Source of the DNA: a virus
Reading direction: 5' to 3' (one strand)
Virus record (IMG/VR): IMGVR_UViG_3300000956_000125
Location: 1 to 37,553 of that record
DNA: 37,553 nt
The notes under the pieces are model-generated. The model saw only the letters and a program-made list of their open reading frames with translations. It ran no database searches and was not told the origin of the DNA. A program made the position numbers and the translations under genes. This document shows positions 6,173-35,372 of the stretch, piece by piece; position 1 is the first letter of the stretch, and each line of letters opens with the position of its first letter.

Positions 6173-6202
6173 AATATACAACAATATGCACAAATTAGTC
6201 AA
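6173..6202 (-). promoter_or_regulatory. Leftward promoter of the 6134-2995 operon
   Basis: On the minus strand, TTGACT (6202-6197), an 18-bp spacer, then TATATT (6178-6173; 5 of 6 to consensus), about 40 bp before the first ATG. The -35 and spacer coincide with the left arm of a perfect 22-bp inverted repeat, mirroring the rightward promoter. Confidence 0.7.
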
Positions 6203-6249
6203 GGGGCAAACCTAGTACATTTGGGTATTGACTAATTTGTGCATATTGT
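6181..6249. repeat. Perfect 22-bp inverted repeat (likely operator pair)
   Basis: The arms are 6181-6202 and 6228-6249 (TTGACTAATTTGTGCATATT plus two bases, and its complement), separated by 25 bp. No mismatch occurs in 22 bp. Each arm is the -35 element and most of the spacer of a promoter firing outward. The spacing suggests a regulator binding both arms, or simply shared promoter recognition. No other copy was noticed in the window. Confidence 0.85.
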
Positions 6250-6257
6250 GTTACTAT
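6228..6257 (+). promoter_or_regulatory. Rightward early promoter
   Basis: TTGACT (6228-6233), an 18-bp spacer, then TACTAT (6252-6257; 4 of 6). The -10 is weaker than the leftward one, though -35 and spacer are identical by symmetry. It would start the rightward operon with an untranslated leader of about 260 nt. Confidence 0.65.
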
Positions 6258-6263
6258 CGTTTT

Positions 6264-6525
6264 TGTAGATGGGGGATGTAACACCAAAGCTGGACTAACC
6301 GCTCGGCCTTGTTGGGCCACAACAGAGCGTGAAAGTGCGTGACCTACAGCGGCAGTGACCGCCGACATGCACGGTCGAAGGTGGCAGCCGGATAGACGGC
6401 GTACTCCGGGGGATGGTATGTAGCAATGTGTGAGCATGGCGCGGCGAGAATAATTTAGATGCGTCGTCAGAGCGTACACCGCACAAAATACCATCTCCCG
6501 GAATATCACTATAAGGATACTCTCG
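6264..6525 (+). other. Structured untranslated leader of the early operon
   Basis: No convincing gene lies here. The RNA can form a hairpin at 6300-6329 (CGCTC/GAGCG enclosing TGTTG/CAACA, with a 5-nt bulge on one side) and a 15-bp helix pairing 6405-6419 with 6488-6502 (one G-U). The strand TCCGG (6405-6409) could instead pair with CCGGA at 6388-6392, so two folds exclude each other. The helix ends about 10 nt before the SD of the gene at 6526. Confidence 0.5.
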
Positions 6526-11369: not shown

Positions 11370-11393
11370 GTGTGGCGAATGGCGGGGAAGGTG

Positions 11394-11423
11394 TTGACAA
11401 GCGACGGTGACGCATGGTAATAT
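11394..11423 (+). promoter_or_regulatory. Strong internal promoter with extended -10
   Basis: TTGACA (11394-11399), 18 bp, then TAATAT (11418-11423) preceded by TGG, an extended -10. Transcription should start near 11430. The -35 is perfect. It feeds the attenuator-like leader that follows. Confidence 0.65.
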
Positions 11424-11452
11424 TGATTTGGCGTCGCGGCCATCTGACAATC

Positions 11453-11564
11453 GGGAACAAAAACACGAAAGCATCCGGTTTTGTTCTCAGGGTGCGGGAA
11501 TAGGGCTACTCGATGGCCCACCGCGACCCCGTATCCTGAGAAGAGAACCGGATTTTTTATTTAT
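11453..11564 (+). promoter_or_regulatory. Attenuator-like leader: antiterminator/terminator pair
   Basis: Terminator: ATCCGGTT (11473-11480) with AACCGGAT (11546-11553), then a 3x3 internal loop, then TTCTCAGG (11484-11491) with CCTGAGAA (11535-11542). The helix continues through 11492-11498 with 11528-11534. An apical GGGC/GCCC hairpin (11503-11506 with 11516-11519) lies inside, and TTTTTTATTTAT follows the stem. Alternative: 11453-11462 pairs over 10 bp (one G-U) with TTTTGTTCTC at 11479-11488, destroying the terminator's 5' arm. The gene at 11581 starts just after. It could equally be a small RNA with its own terminator. Confidence 0.65.
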
Positions 11565-11580
11565 ACAAGGAGAAAATGAT

Positions 11581-11799
11581 ATGGCTGTACAAATGTTTGT
11601 CATGCGATACGGAAACTCGGAAGAAAGCCTTGACGGATGTATTGTGTTCATCGAATCAGAAAAGGTTACTCCAAAGGATAGATCGGAAGCAACTCGCATC
11701 GCAGAAGACGCCGGTATCAAGGATGCTGATATACAGAGCGTCACTACACTCGACGAGTTACCCGATGGTCTGTACCCCGGCCAAGCGTATACCGGATAA
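11581..11799 (+). CDS. Hypothetical protein, 72 aa, downstream of the attenuator
   Basis: SD AAGGAG about 8 nt before the ATG. Reads MAVQMFVMRYGNSEESLDGC, then KDRSEATRIAEDAGIKDADI, ending DGLYPGQAYTG; an alpha/beta mini-domain. Its position right after the terminator-like hairpin suggests it is the gene controlled by it. No family recognised. Confidence 0.6.
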   Translation: MAVQMFVMRYGNSEESLDGCIVFIESEKVTPKDRSEATRIAEDAGIKDADIQSVTTLDELPDGLYPGQAYTG

Positions 11800-11811
11800 A
11801 CAACAAGACTA

Positions 11812-11882
11812 GGGCCTCGGCGCGGAGCCGATAACGGTTGTCTCTACAACCGAAGCGAAGTTCAAGCCTTCGAGACCCACCA
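11812..11882 (+). other. tRNA-like cloverleaf ending in CCA
   Basis: Four helices occur in tRNA order. The acceptor is GGGCCTC/GAGACCC (6 of 7 pairs), the D-like arm is CGGC/GCCG, and the anticodon-like arm is CGGTTGT/ACAACCG around a 4-nt loop (11835-11852). The T-arm is perfect: CGAAG-TTCAAGC-CTTCG (11856-11872). An A and CCA follow the acceptor (11879-11882). The anticodon arm has no 7-nt loop and adjacent helices share a base, so it is not a normal tRNA. A tRNA mimic, a decayed tRNA or chance are the options. Confidence 0.4.
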
Positions 11883-12166
11883 TGCCACACTTTTATGCGT
11901 GCAGGACAACACTCAAGCAATCCGTTCGGCGTCTGCAATAATGACGATGGCCCGGCTAGTCGTGACGGCTTGAGCGCATCGCTTCGGGATAACGATGGAG
12001 ATCACCTGAAAGCGAGCCGGAGTAGTGTAAGCGGCGAACATTTTATAGGCAGCGGGTGAGACCGCGCTATCAAAGTCTGAACGCAAAGAACGGTTGACGA
12101 TAGATACCGCACTTTTTGACACTATCCACAGGCCTCTAACCCGATGCTGTATTGGAGAATTAGATA
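11883..12166 (+). other. Noncoding stretch, no gene seen
   Basis: About 280 bp with no convincing reading frame on either strand. Small potential hairpins occur (for example CATCG/CGATG near 11980). Two TTGAC words near 12092 and 12113 lack matching -10 boxes. It ends in the SD (GGAG) of the gene at 12167. Together with the cloverleaf it forms the largest untranslated gap of the operon. Confidence 0.5.
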
Positions 12167-12595
12167 ATGGACATCATCGAACGCCTGGAAGACGAAGAAC
12201 TGTACGTGGACGCCGTTGACGACGCCATCGCCGAGATCAAGCGCTTGCGGGCGCTGACGGCTAATACGCCAGTGGCGGCGTTCGATCCGATTTGTTATCA
12301 GTTAGATGTGTATGATAATCTCATTGACGTGCGCCTTGAAAAGACAAGGCATGGGAATGATCCGCTTTGGGCAATTCGGGAGTCTGGTTACTGCCTTAAT
12401 AAAGACGGTAAGTGGGTGATTGAGATCATAAACTCTAACAAGGATAAAGACTTTTTTGAGCGTTGTCGCTGGTCATCGGCTGAAGAAGCGATTAGTTTTT
12501 GGGTGAACGAAAAACACAAGAGTCGCTTTGAACACTACCGAAACCAAGAGCACAAGTGGCAGCCGCTACCGGAACCGCCGGGGCAAGGAGAGTAG
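12167..12595 (+). CDS. Hypothetical protein, 142 aa
   Basis: SD GGAG lies 9 nt before the ATG. An acidic helical N terminus (DIIERLEDEELYVDAVDDAI, AEIKRLRAL) resembles a motif found in many phage early proteins. The rest is mixed and aromatic (CRWSSAEEAISFWVNEK). No family recognised. Confidence 0.6.
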   Translation: MDIIERLEDEELYVDAVDDAIAEIKRLRALTANTPVAAFDPICYQLDVYDNLIDVRLEKTRHGNDPLWAIRESGYCLNKDGKWVIEIINSNKDKDFFERCRWSSAEEAISFWVNEKHKSRFEHYRNQEHKWQPLPEPPGQGE

Positions 12596-14731: not shown

Positions 14732-15068
14732 CGCTTTGTAAATCAACCCACCCCGTGAGAGTGCGGCGGGTAAGTGGTAAATAGGGTATCGGCCTTCTAA
14801 TCCGGTAAAGGGAAATGCACTCAAATCCGGTTGTCCAGAATATGCCCATCCGGTGAAAAGCGTAGTGGCGGCAATTCCGCCAGTCTGGTTCGATGCGGAG
14901 AACCGGCAGATGGTACTTACCCGCGCTGAGTAACACACTCTTGACCTGATAATCTCAGGCAATGCGTCCATAACAAGACGGTTGTGAGTGGCCGATACCC
15001 GATTTGAAAGGCTCAAACGGCCCTTTGAGGGCGGATTCCGTCTTTCAAACAAACACAGGAGTCTCTAA
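14732..15068 (+). ncRNA. Structured noncoding block between primase and helicase genes
   Basis: No frame is convincing on either strand. A 10-bp helix (14766-14775 with 14915-14924) closes a 139-nt domain. Inside are TGGCGG-caatt-CCGCCA (14866-14882), TCTGGTTC/GAAC..CAGA and three copies of ATCCGGT (near 14800, 14825 and 14848). Downstream, CCTGA/TCAGG forms a small hairpin. TTTGAAAG (15003-15010) pairs with CTTTCAAA (15042-15049) around CTCAAA/TTTGAG, just before the SD of the gene at 15069. A structured RNA or leader is likely; no known family recognised. Confidence 0.45.
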
Positions 15069-16876: not shown

Positions 16877-17218
16877 ATGGACGCAAATAAAAGTCTTGAA
16901 GTTATTATCTCTGCCGCGCGTTGCCTTATGCGCCTATGCGACGACGGCGACACCGCGAACTTTGACAATGACTCGGATGAGCAATTTGGAGTTGAGATAA
17001 GGCAAGCTTTTTCGGCGCTGATGAAAGACGACGCTATCAGCACCGTCGCGTTGGTCGAGATTTTATCCAAGCGTGAAGGCGTGGAGCGCGTGGACGTAGC
17101 GCCGCATACTGAGAAATACGAGATTTCCGTCTGTGACAATCACGGGAAATACCGAACCGATGGCGTACACGCAGAAGTCCACACTGGGCCGGCGGTTATC
17201 TTGGTGGTCACGGACTGA
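16877..17218 (+). CDS. Hypothetical protein, 113 aa
   Basis: Start at ATG 16877, because GGAGG is 7 nt upstream (an ATG at 16871 would be too close). An acidic helical first half (DGDTANFDNDSDEQFGVEIR) is followed by a beta-rich second half (EKYEISVCDNHGKYRTDGVH). No family recognised. Confidence 0.55.
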   Translation: MDANKSLEVIISAARCLMRLCDDGDTANFDNDSDEQFGVEIRQAFSALMKDDAISTVALVEILSKREGVERVDVAPHTEKYEISVCDNHGKYRTDGVHAEVHTGPAVILVVTD

Positions 17219-21275: not shown

Positions 21276-21303
21276 TTGACTTCCGCGCCAACCGCAGTAT
21301 ACT
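21276..21303 (+). promoter_or_regulatory. Promoter giving a leaderless or near-leaderless mRNA
   Basis: TTGACT (21276-21281), 16 bp, TATACT (21298-21303; 5 of 6). The ATG at 21311 is 8 bases after the -10, at the expected start of transcription. No SD is present before that ATG. Confidence 0.6.
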
Positions 21304-21310
21304 TATCTCC

Positions 21311-21607
21311 ATGCCAACACAAAAACCACGCAAACAGTCCAAGAGCAAATCCAGTAATACAAAGTCAAATGCCGAGAGTGTCCCGCTTGTTCTATCTCGC
21401 GCCATTACTGAGTCCGTCAAGCGTATCAATAACAGCCGAGGCGCTAAGGCGCTTGGGATTAGAACGACGAAGACCGATTTTTACTCCAACCTTGCGCCGC
21501 ATGTTCGCGTGATTGAGAAACGCATCTCTCACTTTATCCGCAAGCAAACTCGGACGAAGCGCAAACCGAAAGTCGCGCCAGTTGCGGACACGGGAGATAA
21601 TCCATGA
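21311..21607 (+). CDS. Hypothetical basic protein, 98 aa (probably leaderless)
   Basis: A lysine- and serine-rich start (QKPRKQSKSKSSNTKSN) precedes a helical core (LSRAITESVKRINNSRGAKA) and a basic tail (RKQTRTKRKPKVAP). Likely binds nucleic acid. There is no SD; the promoter at 21276-21303 would place the mRNA 5' end at or next to the ATG. No family recognised. Confidence 0.6.
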   Translation: MPTQKPRKQSKSKSSNTKSNAESVPLVLSRAITESVKRINNSRGAKALGIRTTKTDFYSNLAPHVRVIEKRISHFIRKQTRTKRKPKVAPVADTGDNP

Positions 21608-25673: not shown

Positions 25674-25677
25674 AGCG

Positions 25678-25719
25678 GCCAGCGCTCCGCCCGTTCGGGT
25701 GTGGGCGCTGGCTGTTTAA
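25678..25719 (+). terminator. Intrinsic terminator of the early operon
   Basis: GCCAGCGC (25678-25685) pairs with GCGCTGGC (25705-25712), with CCCG/CGGG in the inner part and TGTTTAAT after the stem. It lies directly before a new promoter, so it separates early and packaging transcripts. Confidence 0.7.
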
Positions 25720-25748
25720 TTGACCTGACGTGATAGCGATAGTATAAT
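25720..25748 (+). promoter_or_regulatory. Promoter of the packaging operon, near-leaderless
   Basis: TTGACC (25720-25725), 17 bp, TATAAT (25743-25748). ATGs lie at 25750 and 25756; the second sits where transcription should begin. No SD is present before it. Confidence 0.65.
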
Positions 25749-25755
25749 TATGCCT

Positions 25756-26157
25756 ATGACTAACCCACTAACCCCCGCCGAAGTAAACGCTCTGCAAGGC
25801 CGCGAGTTGGACGCGGCGGTGCGTGATGCAATGAGACTTGTCTATCCTGTGCCTTACAGCCAGGACTATACCTGTGCCGCAGTTCTAGAAGATGAAATCA
25901 GAATGCGCGGCTTGACAAATCAGTACATCGAAGCACTCTCGCAAGTCGTCGCTCCCGAATACGCTAGTATCTTCAACTCCGCGATTGAACTGGATCGGCA
26001 CGGCGCGGACATCAACGGCCATGAGTTTATGTGGCGCATGGCGCACGCGACTCCCGAACAGCGTGCGCGGGCCGTTGTGTTGATGTCGCAGGAGATTGCC
26101 GCGCAGGATCGGCTCATGCACCAGATGAGCGATCATGCGATGGGGGCGGCGAAATGA
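25756..26157 (+). CDS. Phage ABA-sandwich-like protein, 133 aa (probably leaderless)
   Basis: Reads LTPAEVNALQGRELDAAVRD then YPVPYSQDYTCAAVLEDEIR. This resembles the phage ABA sandwich domain, whose N terminus is usually GRELDxxVA...PYSTD. The first ATG (25750) is possible, but 25756 is at the predicted transcription start of the promoter at 25720-25748. Function unknown. Confidence 0.5.
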   Translation: MTNPLTPAEVNALQGRELDAAVRDAMRLVYPVPYSQDYTCAAVLEDEIRMRGLTNQYIEALSQVVAPEYASIFNSAIELDRHGADINGHEFMWRMAHATPEQRARAVVLMSQEIAAQDRLMHQMSDHAMGAAK

Positions 26158-28664: not shown

Positions 28665-30473
28665 ATGAACTTCTGGCAGAGACTACGAGGAGCGGTTATG
28701 GCCGGAGTAAAAGCATTCAATCAAGAGTCGTTTGCGACGGATACCGACAATGCCGCCACATTCGAGAGCAGGGACGCGCGCCTGCTCAGGTACGCTGTCA
28801 ATCAGGCGTACTATGACAATCTGGTGTTTAGCAATATTCATAGCTTCGCCGCTGCCATCAAGCGCAAGCAACCAGCACTCTATAAATATATTCAGAACGT
28901 TTATAACCCGGCCTACCGTCTAGCGGAAACTTATCGCATGAACGTGTGGGGCGGCTTGCTTGACCCGCAGGCCGGGGACATAGGCGCGATCCCGATTGCG
29001 GTAGGCGAAGGCACAGACGAAGACGCAATCAGAAAAGCCATTGCGTATCAGTGGATCGTCAGTAATTGGATGGTTAACAAGGCCGTGTTACCGCTCAACG
29101 GTGCGGTGCTAGGCGACTGTGCGATTATCGTCCGCGATTTGCCGGAGAAAGAGTTAGCCAGAATCGAAGTTCTGCACCCGTCGTCTATCGCGGATGTTGA
29201 GATTGACAACGGCATTGTTAAATCCTATTTCCTGCTTGAGACGCGCCTTGACAACGACGGCAAGGCGGCGACCTATGGCGAGAAGGTTGAACGCGGCGAC
29301 GGTGAAGACGTTATATTCTCTACGTTCAAGAATGACAAGCCCTATGCTTGGAATGATAACAAAGGCGCGGATGGAGTACCGCGTCAAACGTGGACGGAGC
29401 CTTACGGTTTTATTCCGCTGGTTTTGATACAGCATGACAACTGCGGACTCAAGTGGGGGAAGGCAGAAGGTCACACGCTTTTACCTAAAATAAACGGTGT
29501 GGAAGACTTGGCAAGCGCACTACATGACCATATCCGGCGCGCGCAGGCCGGCATGGGTTTACTTGCTGGCGTTGATGATCCAGGTAGTCCGGTGGAAGTG
29601 ACGGGACGAACGCCTACGACTGATAAACAGGAGCCAGGCCGAGAAGAAAACAATATGCTTTACTCTGCCGACCCCGCCGCGCACTATGACCCGATGGTGT
29701 TTCCGCTTGATATTGCTTCTGTGTCGGCTGAGATTCAAAATCGCATGAGTGGCTGGAAAGAAGATTACCCGGAGTTGCGCTCTGACATCTGGCAGGCTGA
29801 TAGCCGCGTTGAAGGCGTGAGGGCAGCGCGGGAGCAAGTGGAAGCGAAGATCATCGAGCGCCGCGCCGCCTACGACGCCGGACTGGTGCGGGCTTTGCAG
29901 ATGGTGATTGCCATCGGTGGCTTTAGAAAATACAAAGGCTTTGAAGGCTTTGACTTGACCAGCTTCAAAGCCGGAAAGATGAATTTTTCAATCTCTGCCC
30001 GGCCTGTATTCAAAGACGACCCGGCTCAGAAATTCAAGGATGTACCCGAACAAATCACGGCGCTGTCAGAGTTGCGCTCGAATAACCCTGGACTGTGGCC
30101 GGATAGTTTTTATCAGGCGCAGATCGGTGCTCTGTATGGGATGAGCGAAGACGAAATTGAAGAGATGGCGTCATCAGCACAGGATCAAACGCAGCGGGCG
30201 CTGGATGAATTGACGGGGGCAAGTGGGCGCGTGGCGGCGGGGACGGGAAGTACAGACACGCCCCCCCCGTCTAATATTGAATCCGAGAAGGGACTCAACG
30301 GGGCGCAGATTACGGCAGCGGTTGAGTTACTCAAGAATGTTTCGGCGGGCGTCACGGCCCCCGGTGTTGCAACTGAGTTATTGATCTCGCTCGGCATAGA
30401 CGAAGTGCGAGTCAAGAAAATGGTGGACGCGGCGAAGGCGATCAGCCTGGAAAGCGATTTGAAGGTAGGATGA
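28665..30473 (+). CDS. Portal protein
   Basis: Directly after terL with no gap. At 602 aa it has the layout of SPP1 gp6-like portals: an N-terminal stem region, central blocks (YRMNVWGGLLDPQAGDIGAI, WMVNKAVLPLNGAVLGDCAI, IEVLHPSSIADVEIDNG), a clip region (PLVLIQHDNCGLKWGKAEGH) and a long C-terminal helix (RVEGVRAAREQVEAKIIERR). It forms the ring through which DNA enters the head. Confidence 0.85.
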   Translation: MNFWQRLRGAVMAGVKAFNQESFATDTDNAATFESRDARLLRYAVNQAYYDNLVFSNIHSFAAAIKRKQPALYKYIQNVYNPAYRLAETYRMNVWGGLLDPQAGDIGAIPIAVGEGTDEDAIRKAIAYQWIVSNWMVNKAVLPLNGAVLGDCAIIVRDLPEKELARIEVLHPSSIADVEIDNGIVKSYFLLETRLDNDGKAATYGEKVERGDGEDVIFSTFKNDKPYAWNDNKGADGVPRQTWTEPYGFIPLVLIQHDNCGLKWGKAEGHTLLPKINGVEDLASALHDHIRRAQAGMGLLAGVDDPGSPVEVTGRTPTTDKQEPGREENNMLYSADPAAHYDPMVFPLDIASVSAEIQNRMSGWKEDYPELRSDIWQADSRVEGVRAAREQVEAKIIERRAAYDAGLVRALQMVIAIGGFRKYKGFEGFDLTSFKAGKMNFSISARPVFKDDPAQKFKDVPEQITALSELRSNNPGLWPDSFYQAQIGALYGMSEDEIEEMASSAQDQTQRALDELTGASGRVAAGTGSTDTPPPSNIESEKGLNGAQITAAVELLKNVSAGVTAPGVATELLISLGIDEVRVKKMVDAAKAISLESDLKVG

Positions 30474-32898: not shown

Positions 32899-33095
32899 CT
32901 CAATCTCCGCAATCATCCGCGACTCTACCCGTTGAACCTGTAGTGAAGTCGGAAATCGGGAACGGTATCAGGTACGAGTCGGTTGATATTCAGTGCGACA
33001 AGGAAATAGTTCGCGGTATGCGGATGATCGCCAGCGGAGTCGGTGTTATCATATCGGCTTATATCCGCAAACAGCGCCTAAAAGACATAGATTGA
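32895..33095 (+). CDS. Hypothetical protein, 66 aa
   Basis: Coupled by ATGA to the homing endonuclease. N terminus rich in S, P and V; then a helix (EIVRGMRMIASGVGVIISAY) that is partly hydrophobic. Its stop codon overlaps the -35 of the late promoter. No family recognised. Confidence 0.5.
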   Translation: MTQSPQSSATLPVEPVVKSEIGNGIRYESVDIQCDKEIVRGMRMIASGVGVIISAYIRKQRLKDID

Positions 33096-33120
33096 CACAC
33101 AGGCTATTCTTAGCCTATAA
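33091..33120 (+). promoter_or_regulatory. Consensus late promoter with palindrome in the spacer
   Basis: Perfect TTGACA (33091-33096) and perfect TATAAT (33115-33120), 18-bp spacer. The spacer carries AGGCTA-ttct-TAGCCT (33100-33115), a 6+4+6 palindrome whose last base is the first of the -10. A protein bound there could block RNA polymerase, so it is a likely operator. Drives the scaffold and capsid genes. Confidence 0.75.
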
Positions 33121-33140
33121 TCTCATCAACTGAATATTGG

Positions 33141-33229
33141 CTGACGGCCATAAAAACGCTGTCAGAAAAACAATCGGCTGAGGCCCTTTGTGTTTCCAGA
33201 GATGGAGACGCGAAGGGCCTTTCTTATTT
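33141..33229 (+). terminator. Leader with hairpin and terminator-like stem before the scaffold gene
   Basis: First a hairpin (33141-33165; CTGACgGC/GCtGTCAG). Then AGGCCCTT (33181-33188) pairs with AAGGGCCT (33213-33220), with a 3x3 internal loop and GTTTCC/GGAGAC above, followed by TTCTTATTT. Same architecture as 11453-11564: promoter, short RNA, long hairpin with 3x3 loop, T-rich tail, then gene. It could be an attenuator, or the end of a small RNA of about 95 nt. Confidence 0.6.
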
Positions 33230-33272
33230 CCCCACGTCCCGTTGGACGAAAAACTCGAATGGAGAAAAAACA

Positions 33273-34292: not shown

Positions 34293-35372
34293 ATGTCAAC
34301 TATCTTCGGCTATTTGAATCTCAACGACAACGACCGTATTTTCCAAGCCACGCAGGGCCAGCGCGTCATATATGAAGCTGTCACACAATTCTTGGCAGCC
34401 AAGGCGGCGGAGTTGAACGCGGCCTACGCGATCTTCATCGAGAAGACCACCGACGACTTCAAAGAACGCTACGAACTCCCTGGCGGCGGCTACATGCAGG
34501 AGATTCCGCACGCACAACGTCCCGACAGTATCAAGTCCCTGGGTTATTGGGATGTGGCGTATCCGCTCAAAAATTGGGCCGACGCGATCACGGGTTCTCG
34601 CGTGGATATGGCGTATATGACCGTGGCCGCGATGGAGCGCAATATTCTGACCGTTCAGAATCGTTCCATCAACGTCTCGCGGCGCGAATTGCTCCGGGCA
34701 TTGCTGTATAAAGAGCAAGAGACTTTCGTTGATCCTATTCGCGGGAGTCTGTCCATTGAGCCATTGGCGAATGGTGATAGCGTTGTATACCCGCCGCTCC
34801 CCGGTGCGGTTTCGGAAGCGACCCGACAGCGCTACGTTGGCTCCAACTATGCCGCGTCCGCGATCTCGGACACCAATAATCCCTACGCCACTATCAACGC
34901 CGCACTCACGCAAGACTTCGGCCAACAGCAAGGCAATAGCAATGTGGCCGTGTTCATCAACTCCGCGCAGGAAGCCTTGACGCGGGCGCTGTCTGATTTT
35001 GTGGAAGTCACAGACCGCTTTACCGTCCCCGGCAGCGCCACGGATCGGGTGACGAATATCCCTGAGGGCCTTCCAGGTATCGTGATTGGGCGCGTGTCCG
35101 GGTGCTGGGTTTCTGTCTGGGACTTTATCCCGTCCGGTTACATGCTCGGCATTCACCTTGACGCTCCGGCTCCGCTCGTCAAGCGCATTGACCCGGTTGA
35201 CACCGGCTTGGGCAACGGCGACTTGGCCTTGATTGCGGAAGAAGAAGAGTATCCGTTCAAATCATCCTACTGGCAGATGCGTTTTGGGTTGGGAGTCGGC
35301 AATCGCCTGAATGGTTTCGCCATGCAACTCGTGGCAAGCACGACCACTTACACCAGCCCGACGATTAGCTAA
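34293..35372 (+). CDS. Major capsid protein
   Basis: 359 aa, directly after the scaffold and decoration genes. Mixed alpha/beta with a long N-terminal arm (GYLNLNDNDRIFQATQGQRV), a central region rich in N, G and S, and C-terminal WQMRFGLGVGNRLNGFAMQL. It is the only gene of the right size and position for the major capsid; the HK97-like fold is inferred from context, not from a recognised motif. Confidence 0.75.
   Translation: MSTIFGYLNLNDNDRIFQATQGQRVIYEAVTQFLAAKAAELNAAYAIFIEKTTDDFKERYELPGGGYMQEIPHAQRPDSIKSLGYWDVAYPLKNWADAITGSRVDMAYMTVAAMERNILTVQNRSINVSRRELLRALLYKEQETFVDPIRGSLSIEPLANGDSVVYPPLPGAVSEATRQRYVGSNYAASAISDTNNPYATINAALTQDFGQQQGNSNVAVFINSAQEALTRALSDFVEVTDRFTVPGSATDRVTNIPEGLPGIVIGRVSGCWVSVWDFIPSGYMLGIHLDAPAPLVKRIDPVDTGLGNGDLALIAEEEEYPFKSSYWQMRFGLGVGNRLNGFAMQLVASTTTYTSPTIS

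Follow-up and report, generated by a model that had tools for sequence, protein, structure and literature searches.

In lambdoid phages, Q antitermination acts from a promoter-embedded site at the late promoter pR' (PMC6606751), and in phage HK022 the put RNA, which is ~70 nt long and forms two stem-loops, binds RNA polymerase and acts on later terminators (PMC9378689). Rli51 of Listeria is an example of the terminated leader RNAs that also act in trans (PMC11394854). The window analysed here, which is the whole of a 37,553-base IMG/VR virus record from an uncultured phage, carries at 11394 the pR'-tR' succession of a promoter, a strong intrinsic terminator within about 200 nt and then an operon. 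The features of this unit are the following.

11394..11423, + strand: sigma70-type promoter, TTGACA-18-TAATAT plus a TG extended -10 (consensus match; predicted start near 11430)
11430..11472, + strand: predicted leader 5' of the terminator, 43 nt, with no ATG, GTG or TTG (sequence)
11433..11439, + strand: 5' strand of the closing helix of a predicted three-way junction, pairing with 11521-11527 (folding; 7.5% of shuffles equal)
11453..11462, + strand: 5' strand of the competing (antiterminator) helix, pairing with 11479-11488 (29% of shuffles equal)
11473..11498, + strand: 5' arm of the intrinsic terminator (folding, shuffles)
11503..11519, + strand: small hairpin within the terminator loop (11503-11508/11514-11519), common to both folds (folding)
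11521..11527, + strand: 3' strand of the junction closing helix, unpaired in the terminator loop (folding)
11528..11553, + strand: 3' arm of the intrinsic terminator (folding, shuffles)
11553..11558, + strand: T6 tract, with the predicted transcript end near 11556-11559 (sequence; d score +36.9)
11567..11572, + strand: Shine-Dalgarno sequence AAGGAG, outside the terminated RNA (sequence)
11581..11799, + strand: gene of a 72-aa protein with no detectable relative and a low-confidence beta-beta-alpha-beta model (ORF, codon usage)

Both the promoter and the intrinsic terminator (hairpin 11473-11553, T6 11553-11558) are genuine and exceed chance by a wide margin. The promoter named in the preliminary description is present at 11394-11423 with the hexamers and spacing given there, and the TG lies one base 5' of its -10; when the intergenic gap was shuffled 2000 times, an equal or better score was reached in 0.05% of the shuffles (chance 0.0005), promoters being called throughout as matches to the sigma70 consensus only. 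The terminator stem of the same description was confirmed in all its parts by sequence and folding, namely 8 bp (11473-11480/11546-11553), a 3x3 internal loop (11481-11483/11543-11545), a further 8 bp (11484-11491/11535-11542), pairing above these and T6. The stem-loop 11468-11558 folds at -51.4 kcal/mol vs -25.8 +/- 3.3 kcal/mol for shuffled sequences (z -7.8; 0/500 shuffles), and its d'Aubenton-type terminator score of +36.9 lies on the terminator-like side, which begins above zero. The long stem might also be a site of RNase III processing, but the perfect T6 directly 3' of it favours a terminator. The distance from promoter to stop is ~130 bases, and the predicted RNA would extend from about 11430 to 11558 (~125-130 nt); codon scores of 11430-11560 are near zero or negative in every frame. 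A leader-peptide attenuator was not found, as 11430-11472 contains no ATG, GTG or TTG and so no short ORF before the competing helix, and the leader's sole ATG (11512-11514, MAHRDPVS) is inside the terminator loop.

The gene that had been placed at 11581, after the terminator, was also recovered. Its frame (11581-11799) comprises 72 codons whose usage resembles that of the phage's other small genes in its own frame only, and AAGGAG is found eight bases 5' of it; the terminator ends 9 bases before AAGGAG, and the gap from the T-run to the gene is 22 bases. The predicted structure of the 72-aa protein has a pLDDT of 71.6, a Foldseek search with this model gave no match at E below 0.1, and no homologue of the protein was found in viral contigs, genomes, phages, plasmids or 18 terminase-bearing records. 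From 6526 onward every gene is on the + strand, and the terminator marks the boundary between the 6.5-11.4 kb block and the replication block (HNH, primase, DnaB-like helicase). No further promoter of at least 9/12 was found on the + strand of 11424-12291. Beyond the gene, the ~365 bases at 11800-12166 are without coding signal in any frame and without an Rfam match, and their folding is unremarkable (z -0.65).

The same window holds a second promoter-leader-terminator unit, at 33092-33219, 5' of the scaffold/capsid operon.

33092..33121, + strand: second-unit promoter, TTGACA-18-TATAAT, 12/12 to consensus (0/2000 shuffles as good)
33182..33219, + strand: strong terminator hairpin of the second unit with a T-rich tail after it, 54 bases 5' of the scaffold gene 33273 (d 27.7)

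Gene 33273 is the scaffold gene (PHROG head scaffolding, phrog_4866, E 4e-11) and the capsid gene begins at 34293. The unit folds with a z of -7.0 over 33128-33232, and the sequence GAATAT at 33132-33137 was picked out by eye as a candidate -10-like pause element. In the stringent scan, the two terminators of these units are the window's only strong ones on the + strand, and each follows a strong promoter. Within the spacer of the 33092 promoter, AGGCTA-TTCT-TAGCCT forms a 6+6 inverted repeat that may be an operator.

Several other signals were noted in the window. At 6173-6257, divergent promoters overlap a perfect 22-nt inverted repeat (6181-6202/6228-6249), one arm each, an arrangement that resembles a lysogeny-switch operator. 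The rightward promoter at 6228 is followed by ~265 non-coding bases (6258-6525; folding z -2.9) in which CCGGGGGATGGTAT and ATACCATCTCCCGG form a long imperfect helix. A perfect 11-bp helix (GGGTATCGGCC/GGCCGATACCC) closes another ~335 non-coding bases, at 14732-15068, which fold with a z of -2.5 and are possibly an undescribed structured RNA. Two genes are apparently leaderless (25677-25756 and 21276-21311), with the start codon ~8 bases past the -10 of the promoters 25720-25748 and 21276-21303, respectively; the former promoter is preceded by a strong hairpin terminator (25677-25714).

The promoter-then-terminator layout recurs in a 463-kb set made up of the window and contigs fetched mostly through terminase, a sample that is biased to one terminase neighbourhood and not random. 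Using a stringent terminator scan, looser rules having returned hundreds of matches, 28 promoters with scores of 11 or more were found in this set along with 54 terminators, and eight of the terminators lie at most 250 nt 3' of a promoter vs 0.36 expected under uniform placement, ~20 times chance. The reverse order, with a terminator just upstream of a promoter, was found once, and this is the better control because uniform placement ignores that both signals are intergenic; the excess of the promoter-then-terminator order persists at all thresholds tried. Seven further phage records (six cultured and one TPA) showed a weaker excess, with 3 such units vs 0.36-0.48 expected and 1 in reverse order.

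The unit of L010, a relative of the phage (16694-16798), is directly 5' of a scaffold/protease-like gene (16813), then decoration-like and capsid-like genes, all named by position and our own judgement, and so corresponds in position to the window's unit 33092-33219. In Vibrio phage XM1 (L042), the unit 28708-28843 stands just before genes leading to terminase, and in Pantoea phage PA-1, a lambdoid phage with an N-like gene, the unit 17051-17189 precedes the lysozyme gene in the lysis region. L039, whose capsid protein is 40% identical, has a promoter and no terminator before the gene in the scaffold position, and thus the capsid unit is not universal; the units of L008 and L009, both overlapping open frames, may be weaker examples. 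Further units were seen in L003 (15056-15288), L012 (4624-4795) and L015 (7893-7992), and several units are located shortly before terminase or scaffold genes.

Pairing of the leader with the terminator arm, assayed as a class over eleven leaders, was not beyond chance (Fisher combined p 0.90), which speaks for control on the polymerase, or for the terminated RNAs as products. A 7-mer, ACAATCG, is common to three leaders, being at 11448-11454 in the first unit, within ACAATCGG just before the terminator in the second, and within GACAATCG in L010; such sharing occurred in 0.4% of shuffles among these three leaders, which were picked after inspection, and over all nine leaders it was not significant (p 0.22). 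That a phage factor of an undescribed antitermination system would recognise the short ACAATCG leader RNAs of both window units and L010, allow the polymerase to pass, and so switch on the replication and capsid operons together, is in our estimate a long shot.

No close relative of the phage was found in the viral and genome collections, where the best matches were terminases of up to 57% identity and one topoisomerase-like protein of 58%. The terminase search returned 31 contigs at 30-57% identity, all without the leader, and queries with the DnaB, topoisomerase-like, 249-aa, primase and capsid proteins returned none or one distant contig each; the terminase scan of the genome collection gave one Treponema MAG contig (43%). 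The 11394 leader itself had no homologue in the collections searched. A covariance model built from this single sequence, and weak for that reason, picked up nothing in 494 kb beyond a self-complementary echo and the window itself; it matched nothing in 36 whole records, which for a one-sequence model is not strong negative evidence.

The preliminary description had further proposed that a 10-bp alternative helix (11453-11462/11479-11488) could break the terminator stem. This helix exists, with 8 perfect bp at 11455-11462/11479-11486, but in the shuffle tests it did not exceed chance: equal arm pairing was obtained in 29% of leader shuffles with the terminator arm fixed, and a second form of the test, by energy gain, gave p 0.18. 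Together with two helices not listed earlier, 11433-11439/11521-11527 and 11503-11508/11514-11519, it forms a three-way junction that is the minimum-energy nascent fold for an RNA ending at 11528-11536; in stepwise folding, the junction flips to the terminator from 11540 onward. The leader-to-loop pairing (11433-11439 side) was equalled in 7.5% of shuffles and the whole antiterminated fold in 7.8% of leader shuffles (terminator region fixed; p 0.078). The most favourable figure, an energy z of -2.8 (5/500 shuffles), came from shuffling the whole of 11433-11527, a tract whose ends had been picked to coincide with those of the helix. For the complete RNA, the terminator fold was calculated at -59.7 kcal/mol vs about -40 kcal/mol for the antiterminated fold, and with this advantage of ~20 kcal/mol the terminator should win without ligand or protein. 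The earlier remark that no known aptamer is obvious agrees with Rfam 15, which gave 0 matches window-wide at gathering and 0 up to E 5 in 11370-12180; relaxed matches, with scores far below gathering, were dismissed as chance. Of the riboswitch or attenuator design suggested earlier, the components (promoter, leader, competing helix, terminator and gene) therefore stand, whereas the switch itself is not supported, given the chance-level helix and the gap between the folds, and neither is a riboswitch claim for the 11394 leader.

The best explanation of the 11394 unit, to which we give an even chance, is a promoter-proximal terminated leader whose downstream genes are reached by permitted read-through in the style of lambda pR'-tR'; a small RNA gene is less likely and a riboswitch least likely. 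RNA polymerase would start near 11430 and by default halt at the T-run near 11558, and the default product would be a ~125-130-nt RNA without the ribosome site of gene 11581. The 72-aa gene, and any replication-block genes read from here, would then be expressed only when transcription continues past the terminator. Such passage would most likely be permitted by something acting on RNA polymerase and not by refolding of the leader, the candidates being an antitermination factor of phage or host and a nascent RNA that acts in cis. We infer these start and stop sites, the read-through and its control. Control on the polymerase is favoured for this unit, with the balance about level, because the gene begins 22 bases past the T-run and no other + strand promoter of at least 9/12 is found up to 12291. 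The terminated leader is supported by a promoter and a terminator beyond chance, by the window's only two strong + strand terminators of the stringent scan both following promoters, by the enrichment of this order in the 463-kb set, by the units of L010, XM1 and PA-1, and by the lack of leader-to-arm pairing in the class. Against the terminated leader, no antitermination (N/Q-like) gene was recognised when ~50 window proteins were compared with PHROGs and 20 with Pfam, a comparison that would miss a diverged one, and the leader lacks a homologue; the excess in the six cultured phages and the TPA record is small, the promoters are consensus matches only and the contigs are not a random sample.

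Three other explanations were weighed. The ~125-nt hairpin RNA could itself be the product of a free-standing small RNA gene, with gene 11581 served by upstream read-through or incidental, which we regard as rather unlikely. As in a small RNA gene, a promoter and a strong intrinsic terminator of its own frame a compact, non-coding and very stable RNA (folding z -5.4 for the whole of 11430-11562), and the geometry is the same as that of lambda 6S RNA, which is itself a terminated pR' leader, so that this explanation overlaps with the terminated leader. However, no conserved small RNA sequence was found, a terminator ending 9 bases before the Shine-Dalgarno sequence of a gene of normal codon usage suits a leader better, and no + strand promoter of at least 9/12 was found between 11424 and 12291. 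The terminator could also simply insulate or attenuate between early gene blocks, in which case the level of the replication block would be set by partial, unregulated read-through and only boosted by the promoter. This would fit the run of + strand genes from 6526, the position of the terminator between the 6.5-11.4 kb and replication blocks, and the absence of a demonstrated regulatory fold. Such an insulator would be expected before the next block's promoter and not after it, as 25677-25714 stands before 25720 in the same window, and it is the promoter-then-terminator order that is specifically enriched; we hold this explanation to be unlikely.

A riboswitch or protein-bound attenuator, in which a ligand or protein would stabilise the three-way junction and prevent the terminator, appears improbable. 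The junction is the nascent minimum-energy fold up to 11528-11536 and flips at 11540, the 11433-11527 tract is more stable than all but 5/500 shuffles (z -2.8), and the hairpin overlaps the 5' arm of the terminator in the manner of BglG/LicT-type antiterminators. These observations are countered by the 7.8% of shuffled leaders that equal the fold with the terminator region fixed (29% for the key helix alone), by the ~20 kcal/mol between the folds, by the lack of an Rfam match or of anything convincing from the single-sequence covariance model (494 kb; 36 records), and by the other promoter-terminator leaders, which are without such pairing.

If transcripts do halt ahead of the replication and capsid blocks unless allowed through, this uncultured phage group would have stop-unless-permitted control although neither N nor Q can be recognised, and an antitermination factor would still await discovery. 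Any phage genome can be searched for the promoter-then-terminator order, which would be a cheap finder of such control points.

Compared with the described systems, the 11394 unit shares with Rli51 a 5'-leader RNA ending prematurely before a gene, and the two sequences are unrelated as far as is known. As with HK022 put, a structured RNA is located near a phage transcript 5' end, 5' of terminators, but the 11394 leader has no two-hairpin element separable from the terminator. The BglG/LicT RAT antiterminators and transcriptional riboswitches likewise use the 3' strand of an upstream hairpin as part of the terminator 5' arm, whereas here the pairing is within chance, there is no Rfam member, and no BglG-type gene was found among the proteins tested. 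We do not assign the unit to the Q system, because no N- or Q-like gene was recognised and the pause element is lacking: unlike lambda, the window phage has no recognised Q-like gene and no identified QBE, the first ten transcribed bases of the unit (GGCGTCGCGG, 11430-11439) show by eye no -10-like pause element, and there are two units, one 5' of replication genes and one 5' of scaffold/capsid genes. With lambda pR'-tR' (PMC6606751), the 11394 unit nevertheless has in common a strong sigma70 promoter, a short untranslated leader, a strong intrinsic terminator and then an operon, together with a default product that is predicted here to be, as in lambda, a short terminated RNA.
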